From positions 38,904 to 102,903 of the forward strand of contig DAIEHI010000053.1 of NCBI GenBank assembly GCA_027355725.1: a DNA stretch of 64,000 nucleotides. Reading direction: 5' to 3'. A program made the position numbers and the translations under genes. Of this stretch, positions 10,008 through 62,860 are shown piece after piece. The notes under the pieces are model-generated. The model made no database searches. It was not told the origin of the DNA and worked only from the letters and a program-made list of their open reading frames with translations. Position 1 is the first letter of the stretch; every line of letters begins with the position of its first letter. The DNA comes from Acidimicrobiaceae bacterium. Its GTDB lineage: Bacteria; Actinomycetota; Acidimicrobiia; Acidimicrobiales; RAAP-2.

Positions 10008-10714
10008 ACGAACTGCGCGTCATACCCATTCTCGGCGTGGGCCCCGTGCAGGCGGGTGACGACCTCGTGTCGCTCCTCTTGTCGGCTCTCGACGATTCGT
10101 CGCTCGAACTGCTCGATCGCGACCTGGTCGTTGTCACGAGCAAGGTCGTCTCTAAGTCCGAGGGACGCGTCGTTGACTTCGATGGCACCGACGAAGACAA
10201 GCAACGTCTCATCGAATCAGAGTCCAAACGAGTCCTGCGCCGACGTGGACCACTTCGCATCACCGAGACCTATCACGGTTTCATCAACGCCAACGCGGGC
10301 ATCGACCTGTCGAATACTGCCGTGGGCACTGCGGTGCTCTTGCCCAAGGACCCGGATCGTTCCGCGCGTCGCCTGCGCGCGGACCTGCGACGACGCCGCG
10401 ACGTTGATGTTGGTGTCATCGTCACCGACACCTTTGGTCGTGTGTGGCGACGAGGGGTCACCGATGTCGCACTTGGCTCGGCGGGGATTAAGCCCATCTT
10501 GGACCTTCGCGGATCAAGTGACGCGAACGGTCGGATACTCGAGGTCACCGAGGTCGCGATCGTTGACGAGATCGCCGGGGCCGCCAATCTGGTACTCGGT
10601 AAGGCCGAAGGCACGCCGTTCGCCCTCGTGCGCGGTCTGGACGAGTCCTATTTCGGAGAAGGCTCAGTTGGTGACGATGTCGTGCGATCCGTCAACGAGG
10701 ATCTCTTTCGCTGA
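10004..10714 (+). CDS. cofE: Coenzyme F420-0:L-glutamate ligase
   Basis: 236 residues, covering only the CofE ligase fold that adds gamma-linked glutamates to F420-0. Visible signatures include VVTSKVVSKSEG, the ETYHGFINANAGID segment and VIVTDTFGRVWRRG. Mycobacterial FbiB is about twice as long because a C-terminal FMN-binding nitroreductase-like domain that reduces dehydro-F420-0 follows; that domain is absent here. It is translationally coupled to fbiA. Its last 51 bases overlap the 3' end of the convergent manC gene, so both coding ends are constrained on both strands. Confidence 0.92.
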   Translation: MNELRVIPILGVGPVQAGDDLVSLLLSALDDSSLELLDRDLVVVTSKVVSKSEGRVVDFDGTDEDKQRLIESESKRVLRRRGPLRITETYHGFINANAGIDLSNTAVGTAVLLPKDPDRSARRLRADLRRRRDVDVGVIVTDTFGRVWRRGVTDVALGSAGIKPILDLRGSSDANGRILEVTEVAIVDEIAGAANLVLGKAEGTPFALVRGLDESYFGEGSVGDDVVRSVNEDLFR

Positions 10715-11740
10715 AGTGGACTCGGCGAGGCGGACATCGCCCGAGAGGTGCGAGCGAGCCGCCACACGGACGTCAGTACCCACCACGCAGGTGGCACCGA
10801 GTATCGACGCCGCACCGACGACCGCGCGTTCGCCAATGATCGATGATCGAATCTCGGATCCCGATTCGATGACCGAACCCGGCAACAACACGACATTCTC
10901 GAGAACGACGTCCGCACCGACAACACAATCTCGATCGATCACCGCATTAGAGAGTGAGGCGCTCGGATCAACCTCGCTCGTCGCGTGACGCCAGACGCCC
11001 TGCACGACGTCAGCGATCACGCAACTCTCGTAGCGCCCCCACAGCAGATCAACGTTCGCTCGAAGAAAAGCCTGGGGGGTTCCGGTGTCAATCCAGTACC
11101 CTTCGTCAGCCATGGCGTACAGAGTGCCGGCGGCGGCGAGCGCGGGAAAGGTGTCGCGTTCCACGCTCACTCGACCGGTCGGTGCGATGCGATCGAGCAC
11201 ACTCGGCTCGAGGATGTACGTGCCGGCGTTGATCAGATTGGTCGGTGCTTCACCGACGGGCGGCTTCTCGACGAAGGCAATGACTCGACCCTCGGGCGTC
11301 GTCGGCACAACACCGAACCGCGAGGGGTCCTCGACCGGATGCAGGGCAATGGTGGCCTCGGCGCCGTGGTGGCGATGGAACTGGATCAACTTGGAGACGT
11401 CGAGGTCCGTCAGTACGTCGCCATTCACCACGACGAAAGTGTCGTTGATGTTCGCGTACTGAGCGGCGAATCGAATGGCACCGGCGGTGTCAAGCGGTTC
11501 AGGTTCAACCGCGTAGGAGATGTTCACCCCGCCAATGACCCCGCTCGGATACGCCTCGATGAAGTGGTCGGGTAGGTAGCCGAGCGACAGCACCGCGTCA
11601 GTGACGCCGTGACGCGCCAGCGTCTCGATGACGCACTCGATCATGGGCGTACCCACGAGTGGCAACATCTGCTTCGGCGTCGAGTAGGTCAGCGGTCGAA
11701 GCCGCGTCCCCTCACCGCCGACCAGAATGATCGACTTCAA
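10664..11740 (-). CDS. manC: Mannose-1-phosphate guanylyltransferase (GDP-mannose pyrophosphorylase)
   Basis: 358 residues. The N-terminal nucleotidyltransferase fold has LVGGEGTRLRPLT and the PKQMLPL lysine motif, with VVNGDVLTDLD for metal and nucleotide binding and INAGTYILEP near the middle. The C-terminal 110 residues are left-handed beta-helix hexapeptide repeats. This architecture fits the actinobacterial GDP-mannose pyrophosphorylase found next to fbiA/fbiB in mycobacteria; glucose-1-phosphate specificity cannot be excluded. It would supply GDP-mannose to the mannosyl and deoxyhexose glycan enzymes in this window. It lies 2 bp after the preceding membrane-protein gene, and its 3' end overlaps cofE convergently. 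Confidence 0.82.
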   Translation of the reverse strand: MKSIILVGGEGTRLRPLTYSTPKQMLPLVGTPMIECVIETLARHGVTDAVLSLGYLPDHFIEAYPSGVIGGVNISYAVEPEPLDTAGAIRFAAQYANINDTFVVVNGDVLTDLDVSKLIQFHRHHGAEATIALHPVEDPSRFGVVPTTPEGRVIAFVEKPPVGEAPTNLINAGTYILEPSVLDRIAPTGRVSVERDTFPALAAAGTLYAMADEGYWIDTGTPQAFLRANVDLLWGRYESCVIADVVQGVWRHATSEVDPSASLSNAVIDRDCVVGADVVLENVVLLPGSVIESGSEIRSSIIGERAVVGAASILGATCVVGTDVRVAARSHLSGDVRLAESTSAKEILVDGSHDIVTN

Positions 11741-24200: not shown

Positions 24201-24594
24201 GCGCCCTCACCGGCTCGGGTGGCAGGATCTGGGCGATCGACCGCGCCGAGGCGACCACCACACGTGGTCGCTCTTCGTGCCCCAGCCGCCAGCGAAGCAG
24301 CGCCCGAGTCGCCATCACCGAACTGTCGGGGCTCACGCGCTCGAGGGGGTGGGTGTCCCATCCCGGCCACAGCGCCACCTCCTCAGCACCCAAGAGCGCC
24401 GCCAGCGACTCACTCAGCTGCTCGGCCTCGGTGGTCGTTGCGACAACGACGACCGTGCAGGGGCCGTCAAGGACGTACGAAGCCACCGTGAGCGGCGTCG
24501 CGTAACTGCTCGGGGTGAACGAACCCGTCGCGCTCTGGGCGCGAAGTGAGGGTGCGACCAGTTCGAGGACGCGACGAAGACCAGCGGCGCTCAC
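21205..24594 (-). CDS. mfd: Transcription-repair coupling factor Mfd
   Basis: 1129 residues, full length. Mfd displaces stalled RNA polymerase and recruits UvrA. Order: UvrB-like modules (about 1-350), RNA polymerase-interacting/CarD-like domain (IGSYVVHRQHGVARFSG, about 470-530), superfamily 2 translocase with Walker A CADVGFGKTEIAVRA, VVDEEQRFGV (DEEQ box), SASPIPRT, and the TRG motif region, then the C-terminal UvrA-binding inhibitory domain. GTG start overlaps the pth stop by GTGA. Large spurious reading frames on the opposite strand here are shadows. Confidence 0.98.
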   Translation of the reverse strand: MSAAGLRRVLELVAPSLRAQSATGSFTPSSYATPLTVASYVLDGPCTVVVVATTTEAEQLSESLAALLGAEEVALWPGWDTHPLERVSPDSSVMATRALLRWRLGHEERPRVVVASARSIAQILPPEPVRAPIVVTHAQQLDRERFIEDLTAMGYRRENLVEHRAEFAVRGGIVDVWPAQGHDPIRLDFFGDELDRLTAFDIANQRSLHDVASATIATAREWMPNEATRERAEAFVREQPWGRAVFDRIAAGQLFDGMEGWMPLFVDHATTLLEELSDVRCLVVEPDRVKARLHDLLEEERELTNAVAATWQAGVSVALLHETFERTLEGRAQFTLEPTVGALASGSLNLTSPPVVQGDAARIGSHVRQWSNARRGVVLTSNPASVDRMAEQLRAEGLEVTTDPEKVLEVRMSVLESSLAAGFSLDDPEIVVWSESDLTGRRTVHRKARTRTRNVDGFFDDLAIGSYVVHRQHGVARFSGTTTRAINGTTRDYLILEFKDGRSYWPTEQIDALTPYSGGDAPALSRMGGAEWQKTRAKARAAAFLVAQELVDLYRQRSVAKGFAFSPDTTWQREMEELFPYTLTADQAQAIDDVKADMEKPVPMDRLVCADVGFGKTEIAVRAVFKAVQDNKQAAVLVPTTLLASQHFATMTDRFAGFPVKVALLSRFIDDAETRRTIEGLKDGTIDVVVGTHRLLSENIAFKDLGLLVVDEEQRFGVNHKEAIKTRAVGVDVLTLSASPIPRTLEMAFAGIRDLSMVTTPPVDRRPILTHVGEYSEPAVVEAIRRELLREGQVFFIHNRVADIDEVARRLAQLVPDARIAVAHGQMDEGSLERTMVDFWERRFDVLVCTTIVESGIDLPSVNTLIVDRADRLGLGQMHQLRGRVGRSGQRAYAYLFHPADQVLSETAFERLRTIGDNTALGSGFKIAMRDLEIRGAGNLLGHDQSGPVAAVGYDLYVQLVAEAVADAKGFVAPEVVTINLDVPGEAHLPKDYVQADDARLEAYRRLAGVGSFEELTDLRSEWSDRYGALPRAAEGLLDLAELRLVCLEAGVTSVTVLAAKVGVRSKPVVKMSPVELSLSQQMRARRAYGSRAYTEDTKEFRIEVTADAATPKALCVLLRDVVGEATGG

Positions 24595-25208
24595 GCGCCG
24601 TTCACCCGACGCTGGGCCTCTTCGAAATCGAAGTCGAGCAGTGTCTCAAGCGCGTCCGCGGCGGCGCTGACGTGCGCCGAGAGTTCTTCGCGTCGAGCGC
24701 CGCTCGGTCGCTTCAGCACGTAGTCGGTGACCTGCTCTTTGCGCTCAGGTTTGCCAATGCCTATGCGCAATCGAGCGAAGTCATGGGTGCCCAGGGTCTG
24801 GGCAATGGAGCGAAGCCCGTTGTGGCCCGCGAGTCCCCCGCCAAACTTGAATTGCAGACGACCCGGTTCGAGGTCGAGTTCGTCGTGGGCGATCACCAAG
24901 TGGGTGAGGTCGTCCAGTGACGTTCGACGCAACAACGGCGGCAGCGCGCTTCCCGACTCGTTCATGAAGGTCACCGGCACCGCAAAGGTGACGGGACCTC
25001 GATCGGTGTTGATCGTCGCACTCGTCGCACGTTGGCGCCCCTCGAGTTTCAGTGAGCCGCCGCGGCGCTGCACCACGAGTCGCACGGCGTCGCCACCGAC
25101 GTTATGACGTGACCCCTCGTACTGCTCGCCAGGATTGGCGAGTCCAACGATGACTAGCGAGCTCGCAACACCTCTGCGGCCCTCGTCGCGCGAGCGCCGA
25201 AGCGACAC
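24591..25208 (-). CDS. pth: Peptidyl-tRNA hydrolase
   Basis: 205 residues. Frees tRNA from peptidyl-tRNA that drops off ribosomes. Catalytic and binding residues visible: GLANPGEQY (Asn), SRHNVGGD (catalytic His), FMNESG and IAHDELDLEPGRLQFKFGGGLAGHNGLRSI. Only one start codon is available in frame (GTG at 25208), giving a 17-residue basic extension before the usual N-terminus. Six bp separate it from rplY, so it is co-transcribed with rplY and mfd. Confidence 0.96.
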   Translation of the reverse strand: MSLRRSRDEGRRGVASSLVIVGLANPGEQYEGSRHNVGGDAVRLVVQRRGGSLKLEGRQRATSATINTDRGPVTFAVPVTFMNESGSALPPLLRRTSLDDLTHLVIAHDELDLEPGRLQFKFGGGLAGHNGLRSIAQTLGTHDFARLRIGIGKPERKEQVTDYVLKRPSGARREELSAHVSAAADALETLLDFDFEEAQRRVNGA

Positions 25209-25214
25209 AACGAA

Positions 25215-25811
25215 CTAGGCCGATGCGTTCTCAGAGCCGCCCGCCGTCTTGGCGATGCGTCCGGCTCGAGTGGTGACAACTGAGATCGCGTGGTCGCCGG
25301 CCGGCTCGACACCCTCGGGCAGCACGACGTCGCCGACGCGGATCGCGCCACCGACCTTGAGCCCTGAGATGTCCACGTTGATGTGCGTGGGGATCTGGTC
25401 CGGGCGGGTACGGATCTCGAGGCTGAAGAGTTGCTGGTCGACTTCCCAGTCGGCGTGGCGAACTTCAACGGCGTCACCAATGACGTGCAGGGGCACTTCA
25501 GCGATGACGGTGCTGTTGGGGTCGACGACCTGGAAGTCAATGTGCGACACGGTCCCACGAACCGGGTGCTTTTGGATCTCGCGAGCCATGACGAGGTATT
25601 TCTCGCCATCGGCGTCGAGCTCGATGAGTGAGTTGAGACCTTGCTCGCCCGAGACCGCGAGTCGAAATGCCTTGGCGTCAACCGAGATGGAGACCGACGG
25701 TACGCCAGGACCGTACACAACGCCCGGGATCGAACCTGATGTGCGAAGGCGACGAGAGTTGCGAGAACCCAATTCGCGGCTCTTCGACGCGCTCAACGTG
25801 ACCTGTGACAT
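25215..25811 (-). CDS. rplY: 50S ribosomal protein bL25, Ctc type
   Basis: 198 residues from ATG at 25811, preceded by a strong AGGAG 8 nt away; the ORF-track start adds 13 residues. It is the two-domain Ctc form: an N-terminal 5S-rRNA-binding L25 domain (SRNSRRLRTSGSIPGVVYG) and a C-terminal TL5-like beta domain (VPLHVIGDAVEVRHADWEVDQ). Binds 5S rRNA in the 50S subunit; Ctc forms are often stress-induced. Ends in an acidic/alanine tail. Clustered with pth and mfd as in mycobacteria. Confidence 0.95.
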   Translation of the reverse strand: MSQVTLSASKSRELGSRNSRRLRTSGSIPGVVYGPGVPSVSISVDAKAFRLAVSGEQGLNSLIELDADGEKYLVMAREIQKHPVRGTVSHIDFQVVDPNSTVIAEVPLHVIGDAVEVRHADWEVDQQLFSLEIRTRPDQIPTHINVDISGLKVGGAIRVGDVVLPEGVEPAGDHAISVVTTRAGRIAKTAGGSENASA

Positions 25812-25897
25812 GAAGACTCCTCTTACAAACCGCTGGCCCCACTGGGCCACGCACAGGGTATAAAGTCTAGCCGGACTGGCGTCAGGGCTCTAGCGGG

Positions 25898-26872
25898 CTA
25901 GAGGAGGTTCTCGCCACCGAAGATCTCTGAGACCGAAGAGTCCTCAAATATTGCCGAAATCGCGTTCGCCACCAGTGAGGCGACTGAGAGTATCTCCAGT
26001 TTCTCGAAGCGACGCTCGGGACCGAGGGGCAAGGTGTCGGTGACGACCACGCGGCTCACGGGAGCGTTGAAGAGCCGATCGACCGCGGGAGGTGAGAAGA
26101 CGGCGTGGGTCGCCATGACCCAGATCTCCTCAGCCCCGTTGGCCTTTAACAAGTCACACGCCGCCACGATCGTGCCCGCAGTGTCGATCATGTCGTCAAT
26201 CAAGACGCAGTGACGCCCTTCGACGTCACCAACGATGTGGCGGGCCTCGGCGACGTTGGTCGTACCGTGGGGTCGGGTCTTGTGCACGAGCGCGAGGTCG
26301 CAGCCAAGGTGCTGCGCGTACCGTTCGGCGACCTTCACCCGGCCCGCGTCGGGAGCGACGACCACGAGCTCACGCGGATTGGCGTTGGCCTTCAGGTAGT
26401 CCTCCAGGACCGGCGCCGCAACGAGGTGGTCAACTGGAATATCGAAGAAGCCTTGTATCTGACCAGAATGGAAATCCACCGACAGCACCCGGTTGGCCCC
26501 CGCGGTCTGGAGCATGTCGGCAATCAGTTTGGCGGTGATTGGTTCGCGCCCGGCGGACTTGCGGTCTTGACGGGCGTAGCCGTAGTTCGGGATCACCGCA
26601 GTGATGCTCTTCGCCGACGCGCGCTTGGCGGCGTCGATCATGATCAACTGCTCCATGACCGCGTCATTCACCGGCGACGAGTGCGTTTGGACGATGAAAA
26701 CGTGCGCGCCACGAATTGACTCGTCGAAGCGACAATGGATCTCACCATTCGCGAACTCGCGAACGTTTGCCTCAGTGAGACCAATACCGAGCTGCTCGGC
26801 GATGTCCTGTGCGAGTTCTGGGTGACAACGGCCCGTGACGAGGACCAGACGGCGCTTAGCGAGTGACTCCAC
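25898..26872 (-). CDS. prsA: Ribose-phosphate pyrophosphokinase
   Basis: 324 residues. Makes PRPP from ribose 5-phosphate and ATP for nucleotide, His and Trp synthesis. Motifs: FANGEIHCRFDESIRG, ARQDRKSAGREPITAKL, the VDFHSGQIQGFFDIPVDHL PRPP-synthase signature and the VLIDDMIDTAGTI pyrophosphate/ribose-binding loop. GTG start with TACGCT 6 nt upstream and no Shine-Dalgarno, i.e. a leaderless promoter although glmU ends only 28 bp upstream. Confidence 0.97.
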   Translation of the reverse strand: MESLAKRRLVLVTGRCHPELAQDIAEQLGIGLTEANVREFANGEIHCRFDESIRGAHVFIVQTHSSPVNDAVMEQLIMIDAAKRASAKSITAVIPNYGYARQDRKSAGREPITAKLIADMLQTAGANRVLSVDFHSGQIQGFFDIPVDHLVAAPVLEDYLKANANPRELVVVAPDAGRVKVAERYAQHLGCDLALVHKTRPHGTTNVAEARHIVGDVEGRHCVLIDDMIDTAGTIVAACDLLKANGAEEIWVMATHAVFSPPAVDRLFNAPVSRVVVTDTLPLGPERRFEKLEILSVASLVANAISAIFEDSSVSEIFGGENLL

Positions 26873-26878
26873 GCGTCA

Positions 26879-26884
26879 AGCGTA
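26879..26884 (-). promoter_or_regulatory. Putative leaderless -10 box of prsA
   Basis: TACGCT on the minus strand, 6-nt spacer, then the prsA GTG. The same hexamer recurs before the adenosine-kinase-like and acyl-CoA dehydrogenase genes. Confidence 0.5.
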
Positions 26885-26900
26885 CAAGGTGCGTAGAGGC

Positions 26901-28013
26901 CTATCGGGTGTGATACTCGAATGAGGCGATTACCTCGCCCGCTTCGACGTGAGAGCCCTTGCCAATCACGACAAACGCCTTCACCAGCGCGTCGGCGCCG
27001 ATATCGGCGTCGGTCGCTTCAACCGTGGCGACCACCGCATTGCGCCCGACTCGACAGTCGGTCAGCGTGGCGTGTGGGCCGATCTGAGCCCCACGCTCGA
27101 GCACACAGTGGCCCTTTAATATCGTCCCGGGCAACAGCGACACGTCGGGCTCGATCACGACATCAGCGTCGATGTAGGTGTGTTGGGGATCCCACATCGT
27201 GACCCCGCGCATCATCCACTCATTGTTGATCCGACTTCGAAGCACCGCCTCGGCACTGGCGAGTTGGGCCCGATCGTTCACACCCTGCGCCTCAGTGGCG
27301 TCCTCGAGCACCATGACCTTCGTGATGTGACCCGCGTCGTGCAACGCCGACACGAGATCGGTCAAGTAGTACTCGTTCTGCGAATTCTGGCGATTGATCA
27401 TTCGAAGCGCCGGTCCGAGAAGGCTCTCGCGCACCACCATGATCGATGTATTGATCTCATTGATGGCCCGCTCTTCACGGGTTGCGTCGCGCTCTTCGAC
27501 GATGCGCGCGAGCGTGCCGTCTTTTGCGTAGACGAGGCGTCCGTACCCGAAGGGGTCCTCAACACGAGCGCCCAGGACCGTGAGCGCCGCCTGGCTCTCT
27601 CGATGGTTCTCGAGAAGCCGCGCGATGGTGTCGTGGCGCAACAACGGCGTATCGCCCGCCAGTATCAACACGTCCCCCTCGAGGTCCCCCATCTTCTCGA
27701 GGATCGTGGGCAGCGCCACTGACACGGCGTGACCCGTGCCCAACTGCTCGGGCTGCTCAACGAAACTCAAGCGTGCGTCGTTTCGATGACGCTCCTTGAG
27801 CGAATTCTCCACCCACGTCGCGCCATGGCCCACCACGACCACCGTTGCCTGCACTTCGTCGTGTGACGCCGCATCGAGTACGTACATGATCATTGGCCGC
27901 CCGCAGAGGTGGTGCAGGGCCTTAGGTCGAGACGAGCGCATCCTGGTGCCTTCGCCGGCGGCGAGAACCACGACACAAGTAGGACGAGTCACCCACACAT
28001 CTTTAGCAGTCAT
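26901..28013 (-). CDS. glmU: GlmU-type UDP-N-acetylglucosamine pyrophosphorylase, short form
   Basis: 370 residues. The N-terminal uridylyltransferase domain is complete: VVVLAAGEGTRMRSSRPKAL, EQLGTGHA, LAGDTPLL, INTSIMV, NEYYLTDLV. The C-terminal left-handed beta-helix is cut short: it starts at TYIDADVVIEPDV and ends after about nine strands in FEYHTR. Bifunctional GlmU runs to about 450-490 residues; the part carrying the acetyl-CoA and glucosamine-1-phosphate active site (Arg, Lys, His, Tyr and Asn ligands) has no counterpart here, and only 28 bp remain before prsA. Uridylyltransferase activity is expected, acetyltransferase activity is not. A GTG at residue 8 is an alternative start. Confidence 0.88.
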   Translation of the reverse strand: MTAKDVWVTRPTCVVVLAAGEGTRMRSSRPKALHHLCGRPMIMYVLDAASHDEVQATVVVVGHGATWVENSLKERHRNDARLSFVEQPEQLGTGHAVSVALPTILEKMGDLEGDVLILAGDTPLLRHDTIARLLENHRESQAALTVLGARVEDPFGYGRLVYAKDGTLARIVEERDATREERAINEINTSIMVVRESLLGPALRMINRQNSQNEYYLTDLVSALHDAGHITKVMVLEDATEAQGVNDRAQLASAEAVLRSRINNEWMMRGVTMWDPQHTYIDADVVIEPDVSLLPGTILKGHCVLERGAQIGPHATLTDCRVGRNAVVATVEATDADIGADALVKAFVVIGKGSHVEAGEVIASFEYHTR

Positions 28014-58487: not shown

Positions 58488-59081
58488 ATGAGCGTAGGGG
58501 CGTTCCTGGGCATCTTCGCCCTGATGTTCTTGTTGGAACTTCCCGACAAGACCATGATCGCCACCATTGTCATGAGCACCCGCGCTCGACCTTCGTCGAT
58601 CGTGGTCGGCGCGTCGGCCGGTTTCGTTGTCCAGATGGCCCTCGCAGTGGCGGCGGGGAGTCTGCTCACGTTGCTGCCATCGCACATCAAAGAGCTCATC
58701 GTCGCCCTGTTGTTCCTCGGCGGCGCCGGGTACCTGCTGTTCGTCTCAGAAAAGGACGTCGAAGCAGAAGGTACCCGCGAGGGCCAAAGTGAACGCCCGT
58801 CCTCGAGGGGTCGCGAGATGCTCACCGCCTTCACGGTGATCTTCGTTGGAGAATTCGGTGACCTCACCCAGATCCAGGCCGCCAACTTCAGCGCCAAGAC
58901 CCACCAGCCCTTCGAGGTGTTCATCGCCTCCTCACTCGCCCTTATCGCCATCAGCTTCGTCGGCGCATACGGCGGCAAGCTCTTGCAGCGCTTCGTGCCG
59001 CTCTCAAAGATCCGCATCATCGGCGGTCTCATCTTCGCGGGGCTCGGTGTCTACACGCTCGTGAGAGTCTTCGTCGGATGA
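58488..59081 (+). CDS. TMEM165/GDT1 (UPF0016) family cation transporter
   Basis: 197 residues with six helices in two repeats. The family motif E-x-G-D-K/R-T appears as LELPDKTM in repeat 1 and GEFGDLTQ in repeat 2, so both are diverged (G to P, K to L). A charged 30-residue loop separates the repeats. Members export Mn2+ or Ca2+. Overlaps the following methyltransferase by 4 bp (ATGA). Confidence 0.88.
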   Translation: MSVGAFLGIFALMFLLELPDKTMIATIVMSTRARPSSIVVGASAGFVVQMALAVAAGSLLTLLPSHIKELIVALLFLGGAGYLLFVSEKDVEAEGTREGQSERPSSRGREMLTAFTVIFVGEFGDLTQIQAANFSAKTHQPFEVFIASSLALIAISFVGAYGGKLLQRFVPLSKIRIIGGLIFAGLGVYTLVRVFVG

Positions 59082-59710
59082 GCCGGCGCAAGCATCTGCT
59101 CGATTTCGCGGACACCGTCAAGGGTTTCATGCCGCGAGACGAGGGCCTCGCCTTGCATCATTACGCCCTGCACCACGAAGAAGGCAGGGAAGGAACGTGG
59201 CTCGAGATCGGTGCCTGGTGTGGAAAATCCGCCGTCTACCTAGGCGCCGCGGCCGAGTCGATGAACGCGGTGCTCTACTCGCTCGATCATCATCACGGCA
59301 GCGAGGAGAACCAGGAGGGCTGGGAACACTTCGATGAAACCCTGGTCGACCCCGTCGACGGGCGCCTCAACACCCTGCCCTCGTGGCAGCGCACGATCAG
59401 TGACGCCGAACTCGAAGCAACGGTGATCGGGCTCGTCGGACCCTCAACGGTGATCGCCGAACATTTCTCTGAGCCGCTCGACATCTTGTTCATCGACGGC
59501 GGTCACGGCGAAGAGGTGGCGTGGGCCGATTTTCACGCGTGGTCCCCCAAGGTCGTACTCGGCGGGTTGCTCATGATCCACGACGTCTTCGAGAACCCCG
59601 CCGAGGGCGGTCGTCCACCCTACGAGATCTATCTCGAGGCCCTGTCCAGCAATGAGTTCGTCGAGATCGGCACTGTGGGATCGCTGCGCGTGCTTTCGCG
59701 CGTCGCCTAG
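59078..59710 (+). CDS. Class I SAM-dependent methyltransferase (Methyltransf_24-like)
   Basis: 210 residues. TWLEIGAWCGKSAVYLG is the SAM-binding motif I (E-x-G-x-x-x-G-x-S), SLDHHHGSEEN motif II, LDILFIDGGHGEE motif III/IV and GGLLMIHDVF the post-motif. These are features of the cephalosporin-hydroxylase/O-methyltransferase-like group. Its 3' end overlaps convergently by 4 bp with the alpha-alpha-toroid gene. Substrate unknown; perhaps the same glycan or lipid as the opposite operon. Confidence 0.8.
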   Translation: MSRRKHLLDFADTVKGFMPRDEGLALHHYALHHEEGREGTWLEIGAWCGKSAVYLGAAAESMNAVLYSLDHHHGSEENQEGWEHFDETLVDPVDGRLNTLPSWQRTISDAELEATVIGLVGPSTVIAEHFSEPLDILFIDGGHGEEVAWADFHAWSPKVVLGGLLMIHDVFENPAEGGRPPYEIYLEALSSNEFVEIGTVGSLRVLSRVA

Positions 59711-60777
59711 CGGATCGGACAGCCTGGTTCGGCCAAGTCGAGTGGCGCCGGTAGTTCGCCGTGTCGAAAGAGACCCGAAGCCGGTGACGATGACGTGAGG
59801 GCGTCGGCCGCGAGCAGGACCGCAGCGCTCGTGTAGGAGGTCGTCTCTTGGTCGGGGAAGGTCACACGGTCAGGGTAGGCAATACCCGTCCAGTACGCCC
59901 CGTCGTCGCGACGATGGCGGTTCGTGAGACTGAAGAGTTCGAGTGCGCGAGTGGTCAGCCCGAGTGCGTCAAGCGCGAGCACGCACTCGGCGGTCTCAGC
60001 GGCCGTCACCCAGTCGTTGGTCGACACACAGCGAACGCCGTAGTCGGCCATCACGTGACGCTCCCAGCCATCGACGATGCGCGCCTCTCCCCCCTCGCCA
60101 CCGAGTGCGCCAGAAAAGATCGGGTAGTACCAGTCCATGGCGAACTCGTTCTTCGGCGCGAACGCTCCGGGGTGACGGGCAACGGCGTGACCCAGGCGGC
60201 CCGCCGCCCACTCCCAGGAGAGGCGGCGGCGGTCGAGACGCTCACCGAGGGCTATCGCACAGCGAAGCGAGTGAAAGATCGACGAGGACCCCGTCAAGAG
60301 TGCGTACGGCTCGGGGCGGCCCGCGGCATCGAGCGACCAGCGGATCGTGCCGTCCTCACCCTGCCAACGAAGCACGAACTCCATGGCCCGCTCGACGCAC
60401 GGCCACATCTCACGCGCGAAATCGATGTCGTCGGTCGCGAGCAGATAATGATAGACACCGGTCGCGACGTACGCACAGACGTTGGTATCGAGTCGAGCGC
60501 TCTTCACACTGGGTCCGAGGTAGTAATTGAACCAGCTCCCGTCGCTCAATTGGGTGCGCGCTAGCCAGGAATAGGCCCCGCGAGCCTCATGCTGGTAGCC
60601 GGTGATCGTGAGCGCCATGGCGACCTCGACGTGATTCCACGGGTCGCAGTGTCCACCTTTGAACCACGGGATCTGACCACTGGGCAATTGGAGCGATGCG
60701 AGATGCGCCGCCGTCACCGCGATCTCCTCGGCGCTCAAGACGTCGGGGACACCAGAAAGAAAACGGGTCGTGTTCAC
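59707..60777 (-). CDS. Alpha/alpha-toroid protein (prenyltransferase/squalene-cyclase-like repeats)
   Basis: 356 residues from GTG 60777 (GTGA overlap); the ORF-track start is 58 residues too long. Repeated helical hairpins with LQLPSGQIPWF, TQLSDGSWFNYY, GEDGTIRW and RRDDGAYWTG show the Gly-Ser-Trp-type QW-like repeats of terpene-cyclase or glycoside-hydrolase toroids. No DxDD protonation motif is seen, so cyclase activity is unlikely; a glycan-processing (GH-like) role is possible. Last gene in the GT4-methyltransferase operon. Confidence 0.65.
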   Translation of the reverse strand: MNTTRFLSGVPDVLSAEEIAVTAAHLASLQLPSGQIPWFKGGHCDPWNHVEVAMALTITGYQHEARGAYSWLARTQLSDGSWFNYYLGPSVKSARLDTNVCAYVATGVYHYLLATDDIDFAREMWPCVERAMEFVLRWQGEDGTIRWSLDAAGRPEPYALLTGSSSIFHSLRCAIALGERLDRRRLSWEWAAGRLGHAVARHPGAFAPKNEFAMDWYYPIFSGALGGEGGEARIVDGWERHVMADYGVRCVSTNDWVTAAETAECVLALDALGLTTRALELFSLTNRHRRDDGAYWTGIAYPDRVTFPDQETTSYTSAAVLLAADALTSSSPASGLFRHGELPAPLDLAEPGCPIR

Positions 60778-61490
60778 GAGGGTTTCACGAGGTAGACGAC
60801 GATCGACTTGCCGATCAGCGGTGAAAGCACCCGTTCCATGAACTGGGTGATGCGTGGGCGCTTCACGATGTCCCACACCAGCAAGCGGTGGTAGCCCTTC
60901 ACGAGCGGGTGATCCTCGTTGGTCGTGCCGACGAGACACTTGAGCCACCAATAGGGACTGTGCAGGCCGTGCGCGTAGTGGTGACCTGTGGTGCGCATAC
61001 CCGTTGAGCGCAGGCGGCCCTCGAGCACGGAGCGACGGTAGATCCGAATATGACCACCGGGCACGTTGTGGTATTCATCAGAGAGCGCCCAGTTGAGCAG
61101 TTCAGGTCCGAAGCGTGGCACCGTGATCGCCATGGTGCCCCCAGCACGCAGCACCCGAGTGAGTTCGCGCATCGCACCCTCGTCGTCGGGGATGTGCTCG
61201 AGGACCTCTGAGCAGATCACGCGGTCAAAACTGCCGTCTGGGAACGGCAGGTGCAGTGCATCGCCCTGGACTGCAGCAGTGTGCAAGGAGCCGCTCTTCA
61301 GTTCTCCCGCCTCGAGCATGGCCGCGAACGTCGCCGCCACGCCCTCGACCTCGTCGCGGCCCGCGTCGAGTGCGACCACGTTGGCCCCGCGCCGGGCGGC
61401 CTCGAAGGCGTGTCGACCAAAGCCGCATCCAAGGTCGAGGACCTTATCGCCGCGCTCGAGGCGCAAGCGGTCGTAGTTCGCGGTCAACAT
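60774..61490 (-). CDS. Class I SAM-dependent methyltransferase
   Basis: 238 residues from ATG 61490, which overlaps the upstream stop as TGATG; the ORF-track start adds 94 Arg-rich shadow residues. Motif I VLDLGCGFGRHAFEAARRG, motif II VVALDAG, VICSEVLEHIPDDEGAM and LRAGGTMAITVPRF. The C-terminal helix KRPRITQFMERVLSPLIGKSIVVYLV may touch the membrane. Mycobacterial Rv3030, beside the Rv3032 glycosyltransferase, is a similar methyltransferase partner; equivalence is inference. Confidence 0.85.
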   Translation of the reverse strand: MLTANYDRLRLERGDKVLDLGCGFGRHAFEAARRGANVVALDAGRDEVEGVAATFAAMLEAGELKSGSLHTAAVQGDALHLPFPDGSFDRVICSEVLEHIPDDEGAMRELTRVLRAGGTMAITVPRFGPELLNWALSDEYHNVPGGHIRIYRRSVLEGRLRSTGMRTTGHHYAHGLHSPYWWLKCLVGTTNEDHPLVKGYHRLLVWDIVKRPRITQFMERVLSPLIGKSIVVYLVKPS

Positions 61491-62860
61491 CAGTCGAACT
61501 CCATCGCTGCGGGTAGGGGTGTGTTGTTCAAGATCGCGTCGTAGCACGCTGCAGTCCCGCGCGCCGTCACCTGCCAAGTGAAACGCTCGATGACCCGAGC
61601 ACGACCGTTGGCCCCGAGGCGCTGGGCCAGCTCTGGTTCGTCGAGGAGACGTCGGATGGCGCTCACGAGCGCGTCGGGATTGTTGGGTTCGACCAGCAGT
61701 CCGGTCTCTCCGCTCGTGCCAACGACCTCGGGCAGGGCGCCCCCGGTCGTCGCCACGACCGGCACCGCGCAACTCATGGCCTCGATCGCGGGGAGTGAGA
61801 ACCCTTCGTACAGACTCGGCACGATCGCCACCTCGGCTTCACCGTAGAGACGGGCCAACTCCTCGTCACTGACGCCCGAGATGGTGGTGACGATGTCATT
61901 GAGACCCAGGCGGTCGAGGGTCGTCGCGACTCGACCCTTGGCCCGGGGCTTTCCGATGACAACGAGGTCAATGTCGCGCTCGACGCGCAGTTTTGCGATC
62001 GCCTCGAGCAACGGCACGAGTCCCTTCATGGGCACGTCAGAACTCGAGGTCACCATGAGGCGGCCCTTCTTCTTCACCACGTTGTCGTAGGGCCTAAAGA
62101 CGGTGTGGTCAACCCCGACCGGCACAACGGTGAGTCGTTCAAGGGGGACCTGCATCTGAGCGTTGATGTCGATCTTCGAATTGTGCGAGACCGTCAGCAC
62201 CGCTGGCAACTGCTTCACGACTCGAACTTGCATGCGAAGGAATCCGAACCATCGACGAGTCGTCACCCGCTTCCAAGGTGTCTCAGCGTGATCGAGCGCA
62301 ATCGAGCGATCAACCGTGATGGGATGATGCAGCGTCTCAAGCAGTGGCCACCCGTCACGATGGAGTTTCAAGATCCCAGGGCCCATGCATTGGTTGTCGT
62401 GGATGATGTCGAAGTCCCCACGTCGTTGCTTCAAGATCTTGTTGATCCGCATCGAATACGCCAGGGGCTCTCCGAAACCGGCGCTCAGCATCACGGCGAA
62501 CTCCGCTACGTCGGCCGTTGAGGTGAACTCCGAACGGGCGGGGATGCGAAACGGGTCGGGGTCTCGGTACAGGTCAAGCCCTCGTACCGGCGTAAAGCCC
62601 ACGCCTTCATCGAGTTCGGGCCACGGCGGGCCCGAGAAGACCTCGACACTGTGGCCCAGATTGACCAATTCGCGCGTCAAGTGGCGCGTGTAGACACCCT
62701 GGCCACCACAACGTGGATTACCGCGATAGACGAGGAAAGCAATCCTCGACTTACCCGCAGCAGCCGGCCGTGGCTCAATGCGACCGGGGACCGTGATCTC
62801 CTTCGAGAGGGCCCAGGACGCCTTCGTGTCATGAATGGTCTGGCGCAGAGTTCGAGACAC
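61490..62860 (-). CDS. GT4 family glycosyltransferase
   Basis: 456 residues. N-terminal GNPRCGGQGVYTRHLTREL loop; SGPPWPELDEGVGFTPV region typical of the Rv3032-like GT4 branch; donor site with VPVGVDHTVFRP, SDVPMKGLVPLLEAI, IVPSLYEGFSLPAIEAMSCA (E-x7-E) and TGETGLLVEPNNPDALV. Long 40-residue basic N-terminal arm without hydrophobic helix. Heads a three-gene operon with a methyltransferase and the toroid protein. Donor and acceptor unknown; a methylated polysaccharide is a reasonable hypothesis. Confidence 0.85.
   Translation of the reverse strand: MSRTLRQTIHDTKASWALSKEITVPGRIEPRPAAAGKSRIAFLVYRGNPRCGGQGVYTRHLTRELVNLGHSVEVFSGPPWPELDEGVGFTPVRGLDLYRDPDPFRIPARSEFTSTADVAEFAVMLSAGFGEPLAYSMRINKILKQRRGDFDIIHDNQCMGPGILKLHRDGWPLLETLHHPITVDRSIALDHAETPWKRVTTRRWFGFLRMQVRVVKQLPAVLTVSHNSKIDINAQMQVPLERLTVVPVGVDHTVFRPYDNVVKKKGRLMVTSSSDVPMKGLVPLLEAIAKLRVERDIDLVVIGKPRAKGRVATTLDRLGLNDIVTTISGVSDEELARLYGEAEVAIVPSLYEGFSLPAIEAMSCAVPVVATTGGALPEVVGTSGETGLLVEPNNPDALVSAIRRLLDEPELAQRLGANGRARVIERFTWQVTARGTAACYDAILNNTPLPAAMEFD

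Follow-up and report, generated by a model that had tools for sequence, protein, structure and literature searches.

Bacteria of the order to which the host of this DNA belongs encode a GlmU that has lost its acetyltransferase site, and the missing step is probably carried out by a small separate acetyltransferase, an arrangement similar to that of animals, fungi and malaria parasites. In the window, i.e., the whole 64,000-nucleotide stretch that was analysed, glmU is an intact but short gene, and its truncation is close to certain. The best explanation, to which we assign a probability of about 0.6, is that the 370-residue product is a genuine single-function GlmU, predicted to join GlcNAc-1-phosphate to UTP only, and that a stand-alone GNAT protein of ~145 aa provides the acetylation by a eukaryote-like route.

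No peptidoglycan layer can be built without UDP-GlcNAc, and GlmU is both taught and targeted by drugs as a two-function bacterial enzyme. A common order of soil and fresh water that does without the second function would demonstrate the evolutionary interchangeability of the bacterial and eukaryotic routes. The analysis offers a concrete candidate gene for the missing acetylation, and the label "bifunctional GlmU" in metabolic reconstructions would be wrong for the order.

The truncated GlmU

The features of the glmU region are collected in Table 1. Pfam recognizes a nucleotidyltransferase domain and four hexapeptide stretches in the protein. The uridylyltransferase domain is intact, as the first-pass annotation of this DNA had claimed: in alignment A3 the LAAGxGxRM motif, K31, Q87, GTG, D121, YGR, E173 and N246 are invariant or nearly so, and every catalytic residue checked is conserved.

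Table 1. Features of the glmU region (window positions)
Feature	Position	Strand	Remarks
glmU, short form	26901..28013	-	370 aa, ATG start, ORF intact; predicted monofunctional N-acetylglucosamine-1-phosphate uridylyltransferase
uridylyltransferase (Rossmann-like) domain	27276..27980	-	residues ~12-246; catalytic residues conserved
remnant left-handed beta-helix	26916..27164	-	residues ~284-366; stops short of the acetyl-CoA / glucosamine-1-phosphate site
glmU-prs gap	26873..26900		28 bp
prs (ribose-phosphate pyrophosphokinase)	25898..26872	-	next operon gene in short- and full-GlmU genomes alike
rplY-like (ribosomal protein L25)	25215..25850	-	conserved operon
pth-like (peptidyl-tRNA hydrolase)	24591..25208	-	conserved operon

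The same annotation placed the end of the beta-helix before the acetyltransferase residues, and three lines of evidence bear this out. The NCBIfam GlmU model TIGR01173 matches over positions 3-343 of 452 with 336.9 bits, below its cut-off of 366.85, and a second NCBIfam GlmU model is matched over 4-354 of 488 only, so that model coverage of the 370-aa protein ends at about position 344 of 452. When 23 short sequences were compared with 6 full-length controls, the acetyltransferase site, which we take to comprise R333, K351, H363, Y366, N377 and N386 in E. coli numbering, was complete in 6/6 full-length proteins and in 0/23 short ones. The columns matching K351, H363, Y366, N377 and N386 are missing or substituted in all 23, and the arginine of the "LRPG" motif (the R333 equivalent), kept in each control, is substituted in every short GlmU. 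Finally, the AlphaFold2 model (mean pLDDT 91.7) consists of the uridylyltransferase domain and the first part of the beta-helix, ends at about residue 368 and overlays GlmU structures, among them the artificially truncated E. coli GlmU entries 1fwy and 1fxj (TMt 0.82-0.84).

Downstream, the prs ORF starts with GTG at 26872. The earlier remark that the gap harbours no frameshifted remainder is confirmed, since 28 bp leave no room for an acetyltransferase half and no remnant lies inside them. Elsewhere in the window (10664-11740, minus strand), a GDP-mannose pyrophosphorylase-like protein, a nucleotidyltransferase with a hexapeptide tail, is the best non-GlmU match of the genome.

Distribution of the short form

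The sample comprised 198 genomes of the class, 68 of them from the host's order. All 57 order genomes with a detected GlmU carry the short form, with the same end point throughout, and no full-length GlmU was found among the order relatives searched, six of which are single-contig genomes. Full-length GlmU occurs in 112 genomes, all from other orders of the class; in the remainder of the sample GlmU is absent or present as partial copies only. The gene order glmU-prs-rplY-pth is identical in short- and full-GlmU genomes, and this shared synteny identifies the short gene as an orthologue and not a paralogue. Loss of the acetyltransferase part in the ancestor of the order best explains this pattern. 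Named database records with the same candidate GNAT as the host (see below) belong to Ilumatobacteraceae, Microthrixaceae, Ferrithrix and Acidimicrobiaceae, which suggests that the order is most likely Acidimicrobiales.

In 11 order genomes GlmU was not detected (G098, G118, G134, G198, G204, G207, G215, G217, G221, G225 and G169), the best TIGR01173 match in such genomes being 1e-15 to 1e-21. They cluster by family (f28, f29, f30, f32 and part of f7), and G169 is of the host's genus. The candidate GNAT is present in 10 of the 11, G225 being the exception. Possibly these bacteria use a different UDP-GlcNAc pyrophosphorylase; the stretches read near their GNAT genes contain none of the eukaryotic type.

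The same domain has been lost outside the order. In family f42, which belongs to another order, four genomes from three genera encode GlmUs of ~246-315 aa in which the whole helix is gone, with clean ends and prs as the next gene, an independent loss of the acetyltransferase domain. In a sample of the phylum, the actinobacterial families f68 (L313-L318, L323, L324) and f89 (L332-L334) likewise have a short or uridylyltransferase-only GlmU, usually adjoined by prs. A presumed further loss outside the class, in genome G466, was discarded, as the gene there is a full-length glmU with a frameshift. This glmU (G466:C21:872727-874036; L331, L336), found in a genome that also contains the GNAT, represents either an error or early decay.

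The rest of the pathway in the host genome

The host genome is a MAG of 228 contigs that is 85.6% complete; its relatives are more complete. The genes glmM and glmS are adjacent on contig C75, which indicates that the UDP-GlcNAc pathway is otherwise in place. Both are conserved across the order and, in the majority of its genomes examined, adjacent or close. GlmM mostly exceeds the bacterial GlmM cut-off in these genomes, as it does in full-GlmU genomes, and reaches 398-419 bits in the host genus, below the cut-off of 447.55. In most families of the order, the glmM-glmS loci (L138-L145, e.g. L142:7997-11452) encode GlmS-like proteins of ~1120-1150 aa, compared to the usual ~610 aa, that fall below the GlmS cut-off; the GlmS of the host's own family is normal. 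Inspection by eye of the ~1150-aa proteins from those other families gave no sign of a GlmS-acetyltransferase fusion.

The expectation that UDP-GlcNAc synthesis here needs a separate acetyltransferase is supported. Capped searches of the host MAG yielded neither a second GlmU nor a GlmU-like LbetaH acetyltransferase. Given its completeness, this absence is weak evidence alone, but the single-contig relatives agree with the host on GlmU. The GlmU-like candidates of the host, namely the GDP-mannose pyrophosphorylase-like protein, an RmlA-like protein, DapD, a WbpD-like transferase, a gamma carbonic anhydrase and some weaker hexapeptide matches, were considered and none fits. Beside glmM and glmS no acetyltransferase is conserved except the RimI of the tsa cluster. 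The first-pass annotation had pointed to a stand-alone LbetaH acetyltransferase as the place to look; the best candidate is instead a protein of the GNAT fold.

A candidate GNAT acetyltransferase

The GNAT proteins of five order genomes were listed and then grouped by reciprocal best match. The group with the motif IEDVVVD was picked for its resemblance to GNA1 before its distribution was known, and the profile used for the distribution was built from this group and not from the other core GNATs. The host copy (148 aa, G000:C162:1420-1866) lies on another contig than glmU. Strong profile matches are found in 65 of the 68 order genomes. Outside the order there are eight genomes with one: four of family f42, which are exactly those with the reduced GlmU, and four of family f53. 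Within the order, the GNAT accompanies 55 of 57 short GlmUs (G166 and G182 being the two without a match), as against 4 of 112 full-GlmU genomes; the class-wide tally is 59/61 versus 4/112. Fisher's test gives p ~1e-38, a value that ignores shared ancestry, and for this reason the event in f42 is the better argument: there the GNAT occurs in 4/4 genomes with a short GlmU and in 0/13 with a full-length one (p 4e-4). The GNAT tree is weakly resolved and places the f42 copies in two branches.

The association has exceptions. The GNAT coexists with a full-length GlmU most clearly in family f53 (genus g87; G105, G109, G186, G237) and at L279 and L280, and further in a few large-genome actinobacteria, and no strong match to it was found in the short-GlmU families f68 and f89 of the phylum sample. 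The latter observation implies that the domain was lost several times and that other solutions exist. Together, f68 and f89, the full-GlmU carriers and the GlmU-less genomes keep the functional claim at about 0.6.

Proteins of this GNAT family are ~140-160 aa long, and the host protein shares 46-59% identity with copies from other families. E78, D79, R87, R116, R119 and the active-site Tyr126 are conserved in 125/125 sequences, G88 and G92 in 99% of them. Thus the family possesses motif A (R/Q-x-x-G-x-G/A) and the catalytic tyrosine that go with the GNAT fold. Its structural model (pLDDT 95.3) superimposes on GNA1 of Cryptosporidium (C. parvum, 6yug) with TM scores of 0.79/0.82 and an rmsd of 2.0. 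Profile matches in the PDB include the GNA1 enzymes of T. brucei (3fb3, 8e-11), C. parvum (6yug, 8e-9), C. elegans (4ag7, 1e-6), Arabidopsis (3t90, 7e-6) and human (3cxp, 2e-5). Aminoglycoside, polyamine, N-terminal and uncharacterised acetyltransferases are interleaved with them at similar scores, so that the matches are compatible with GNA1 activity without proving it, and the resemblance does not fix the substrate.

C. parvum GNA1 needs a tyrosine and several arginines (PMC7587441); the GlcN-6-P-binding residues used for comparison were R73, H81, R113, T117 and R141. The GNAT family could satisfy such a pattern: its arginines 74, 116, 119 and 140 are invariant or near-invariant and are candidate GlcN-6-P binders, the comparison with the C. 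parvum enzyme being one of fold and profile rather than of individual residues. Among GNATs, GNA1 activity evolved on more than one occasion (PMC5838249).

The GNAT gene is not adjacent to the glm genes. In many order genomes its neighbour is a Nudix hydrolase with a Nudix_N domain, directly ahead of it or nearby (L263:24-1866 in the host, on G000:C162; L264, L268, L271, L272). A chlorite-dismutase-like gene precedes the GNAT in the host, and GlnD-like and PAC2 genes are located nearby in other genomes. A cluster of a small methyltransferase-like protein, a prenyltransferase-like protein, a SAM methyltransferase and a glycosyltransferase is present in the window at 59078-62860; judged by eye, a similar cluster adjoins the GNAT in f30 relatives and in MedAcidi-G2B (L420:10871-14600, L375:7987-11715).

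Proposed pathway and alternatives

In the route proposed here, GlmS would make GlcN-6-P, which the GNAT would acetylate to GlcNAc-6-P; from this, GlmM or a related mutase would make GlcNAc-1-P by shifting the phosphate, and the short GlmU would turn the product into UDP-GlcNAc. We infer that the GNAT is the missing acetyltransferase, that it acts on GlcN-6-P rather than GlcN-1-P and that GlmM can work on the acetylated sugar. The fuller account, in which the order swapped the GlmU acetyltransferase for the GNAT and adopted the eukaryotic order of steps, a related family of the class did likewise on its own and GlmU disappeared altogether from some of the order's families, is tentative and, taken whole, falls somewhat short of an even chance.

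A variant of the preferred reading retains the classical order of steps and changes the catalyst only, the GNAT acetylating GlcN-1-phosphate after GlmM. In its favour, GlmM exceeds the bacterial cut-off in the majority of the order genomes examined, so that the mutase may still use GlcN-6-P. We regard the variant as improbable, because the GNAT-fold enzymes known to make GlcNAc phosphate, i.e., eukaryotic and apicomplexan GNA1, use GlcN-6-P (PMC7587441, PMC5838249), and the low score of GlmM in the host genus also speaks against it. The most serious competitor, unlikely but still the strongest of the rivals, accepts a monofunctional GlmU and attributes acetylation to another enzyme, either a different GNAT or an LbetaH protein of another family, the co-distributed GNAT being unrelated. 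The order does have other core GNATs, among them a phosphinothricin-acetyltransferase-like cluster found in 5/5 genomes examined, and the host has further LbetaH proteins; moreover, f68 and f89 dispense with the candidate and f53 combines it with a full GlmU. On the other hand, it is the candidate GNAT that accompanies the independent loss in f42, and for no other candidate was a match with the loss of the domain observed, the distribution profile having been made for the IEDVVVD group alone. By sequence and neighbours, the LbetaH proteins of the host resemble DapD, a WbpD-like sugar acetyltransferase and gamma carbonic anhydrase.

Two further explanations dispense with a replacement enzyme. 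These bacteria might make no GlcNAc phosphate of their own and live by salvage of GlcNAc, GlcNAc-1-P or peptidoglycan fragments. This has been proposed for Rickettsia, whose GlmU, likewise without an acetyltransferase domain, is believed to work on GlcNAc-1-P from the host cell (PMC5615194). Salvage is very unlikely for genomes of 1.3-5.5 Mb, many of them from soil or fresh water according to their record names, and conserved, mostly neighbouring glmS and glmM are hard to explain without a need for amino-sugar phosphates. An assembly or sequencing error, that is, a frameshift or misjoin hiding the rest of GlmU, might be suspected in a fragmented MAG. Its likelihood is negligible: the gene has a clean stop followed after a short gap by prs, the residues of the remnant helix have drifted as if the acetyltransferase function were long gone, and the end point recurs throughout the order, six single-contig genomes included, which rules out chance or error as the cause of the truncation.

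Comparison with known systems

With the bifunctional GlmU described by TIGR01173 (E. coli, M. tuberculosis), the short form shares the uridylyltransferase domain and its residues as well as the beginning of the beta-helix, and with the full-length GlmUs of other orders of the class it shares the operon neighbours. Unlike them, it is devoid of the last ~100-110 residues, which hold the acetyl-CoA and GlcN-1-P site, and scores under the family cut-off. The E. coli GlmU cut in the laboratory (1fwy, 1fxj) has about the same extent, the uridylyltransferase domain and the first turns of the helix, but is an engineered construct, whereas the short GlmU is a natural gene product.

A bacterial enzyme comparable to the candidate GNAT is GlmA of Clostridium acetobutylicum, for which acetylation of glucosamine or its phosphate has been reported. 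GlmA is described as serving salvage or recycling in a species whose GlmU is an ordinary one, and this description sets it apart from the candidate. The GNA1 enzymes of eukaryotes, including the apicomplexan GNA1 that evolved separately (3fb3, 6yug; PMC5838249, PMC7587441), have in common with the candidate the GNAT fold, profile similarity, the active-site tyrosine and the proposed place in the pathway. They differ from it in that the candidate is bacterial, shows only 18-28% identity in structural matches, and has a predicted activity and candidate substrate-binding arginines.

A monofunctional GlmU as such is not new, since rickettsial GlmU has naturally lost the same C-terminal acetyltransferase domain (PMC5615194). 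The host resembles it in that the uridylyltransferase part is kept, the acetyltransferase part is lost and a second GlmU was not found in the 85.6% complete MAG. Our literature search found no paper on GlmU truncation in Acidimicrobiia and no report of a short GlmU as the trait of a free-living bacterial order or of a candidate GNAT replacement, so an order-wide short GlmU with a candidate replacement appears to be unreported. The rickettsial carriers, as obligate intracellular parasites, are believed to obtain GlcNAc-1-P from their host (PMC5615194); unlike them, the order described here keeps glmS, glmM and a candidate enzyme for the step that its GlmU has lost.
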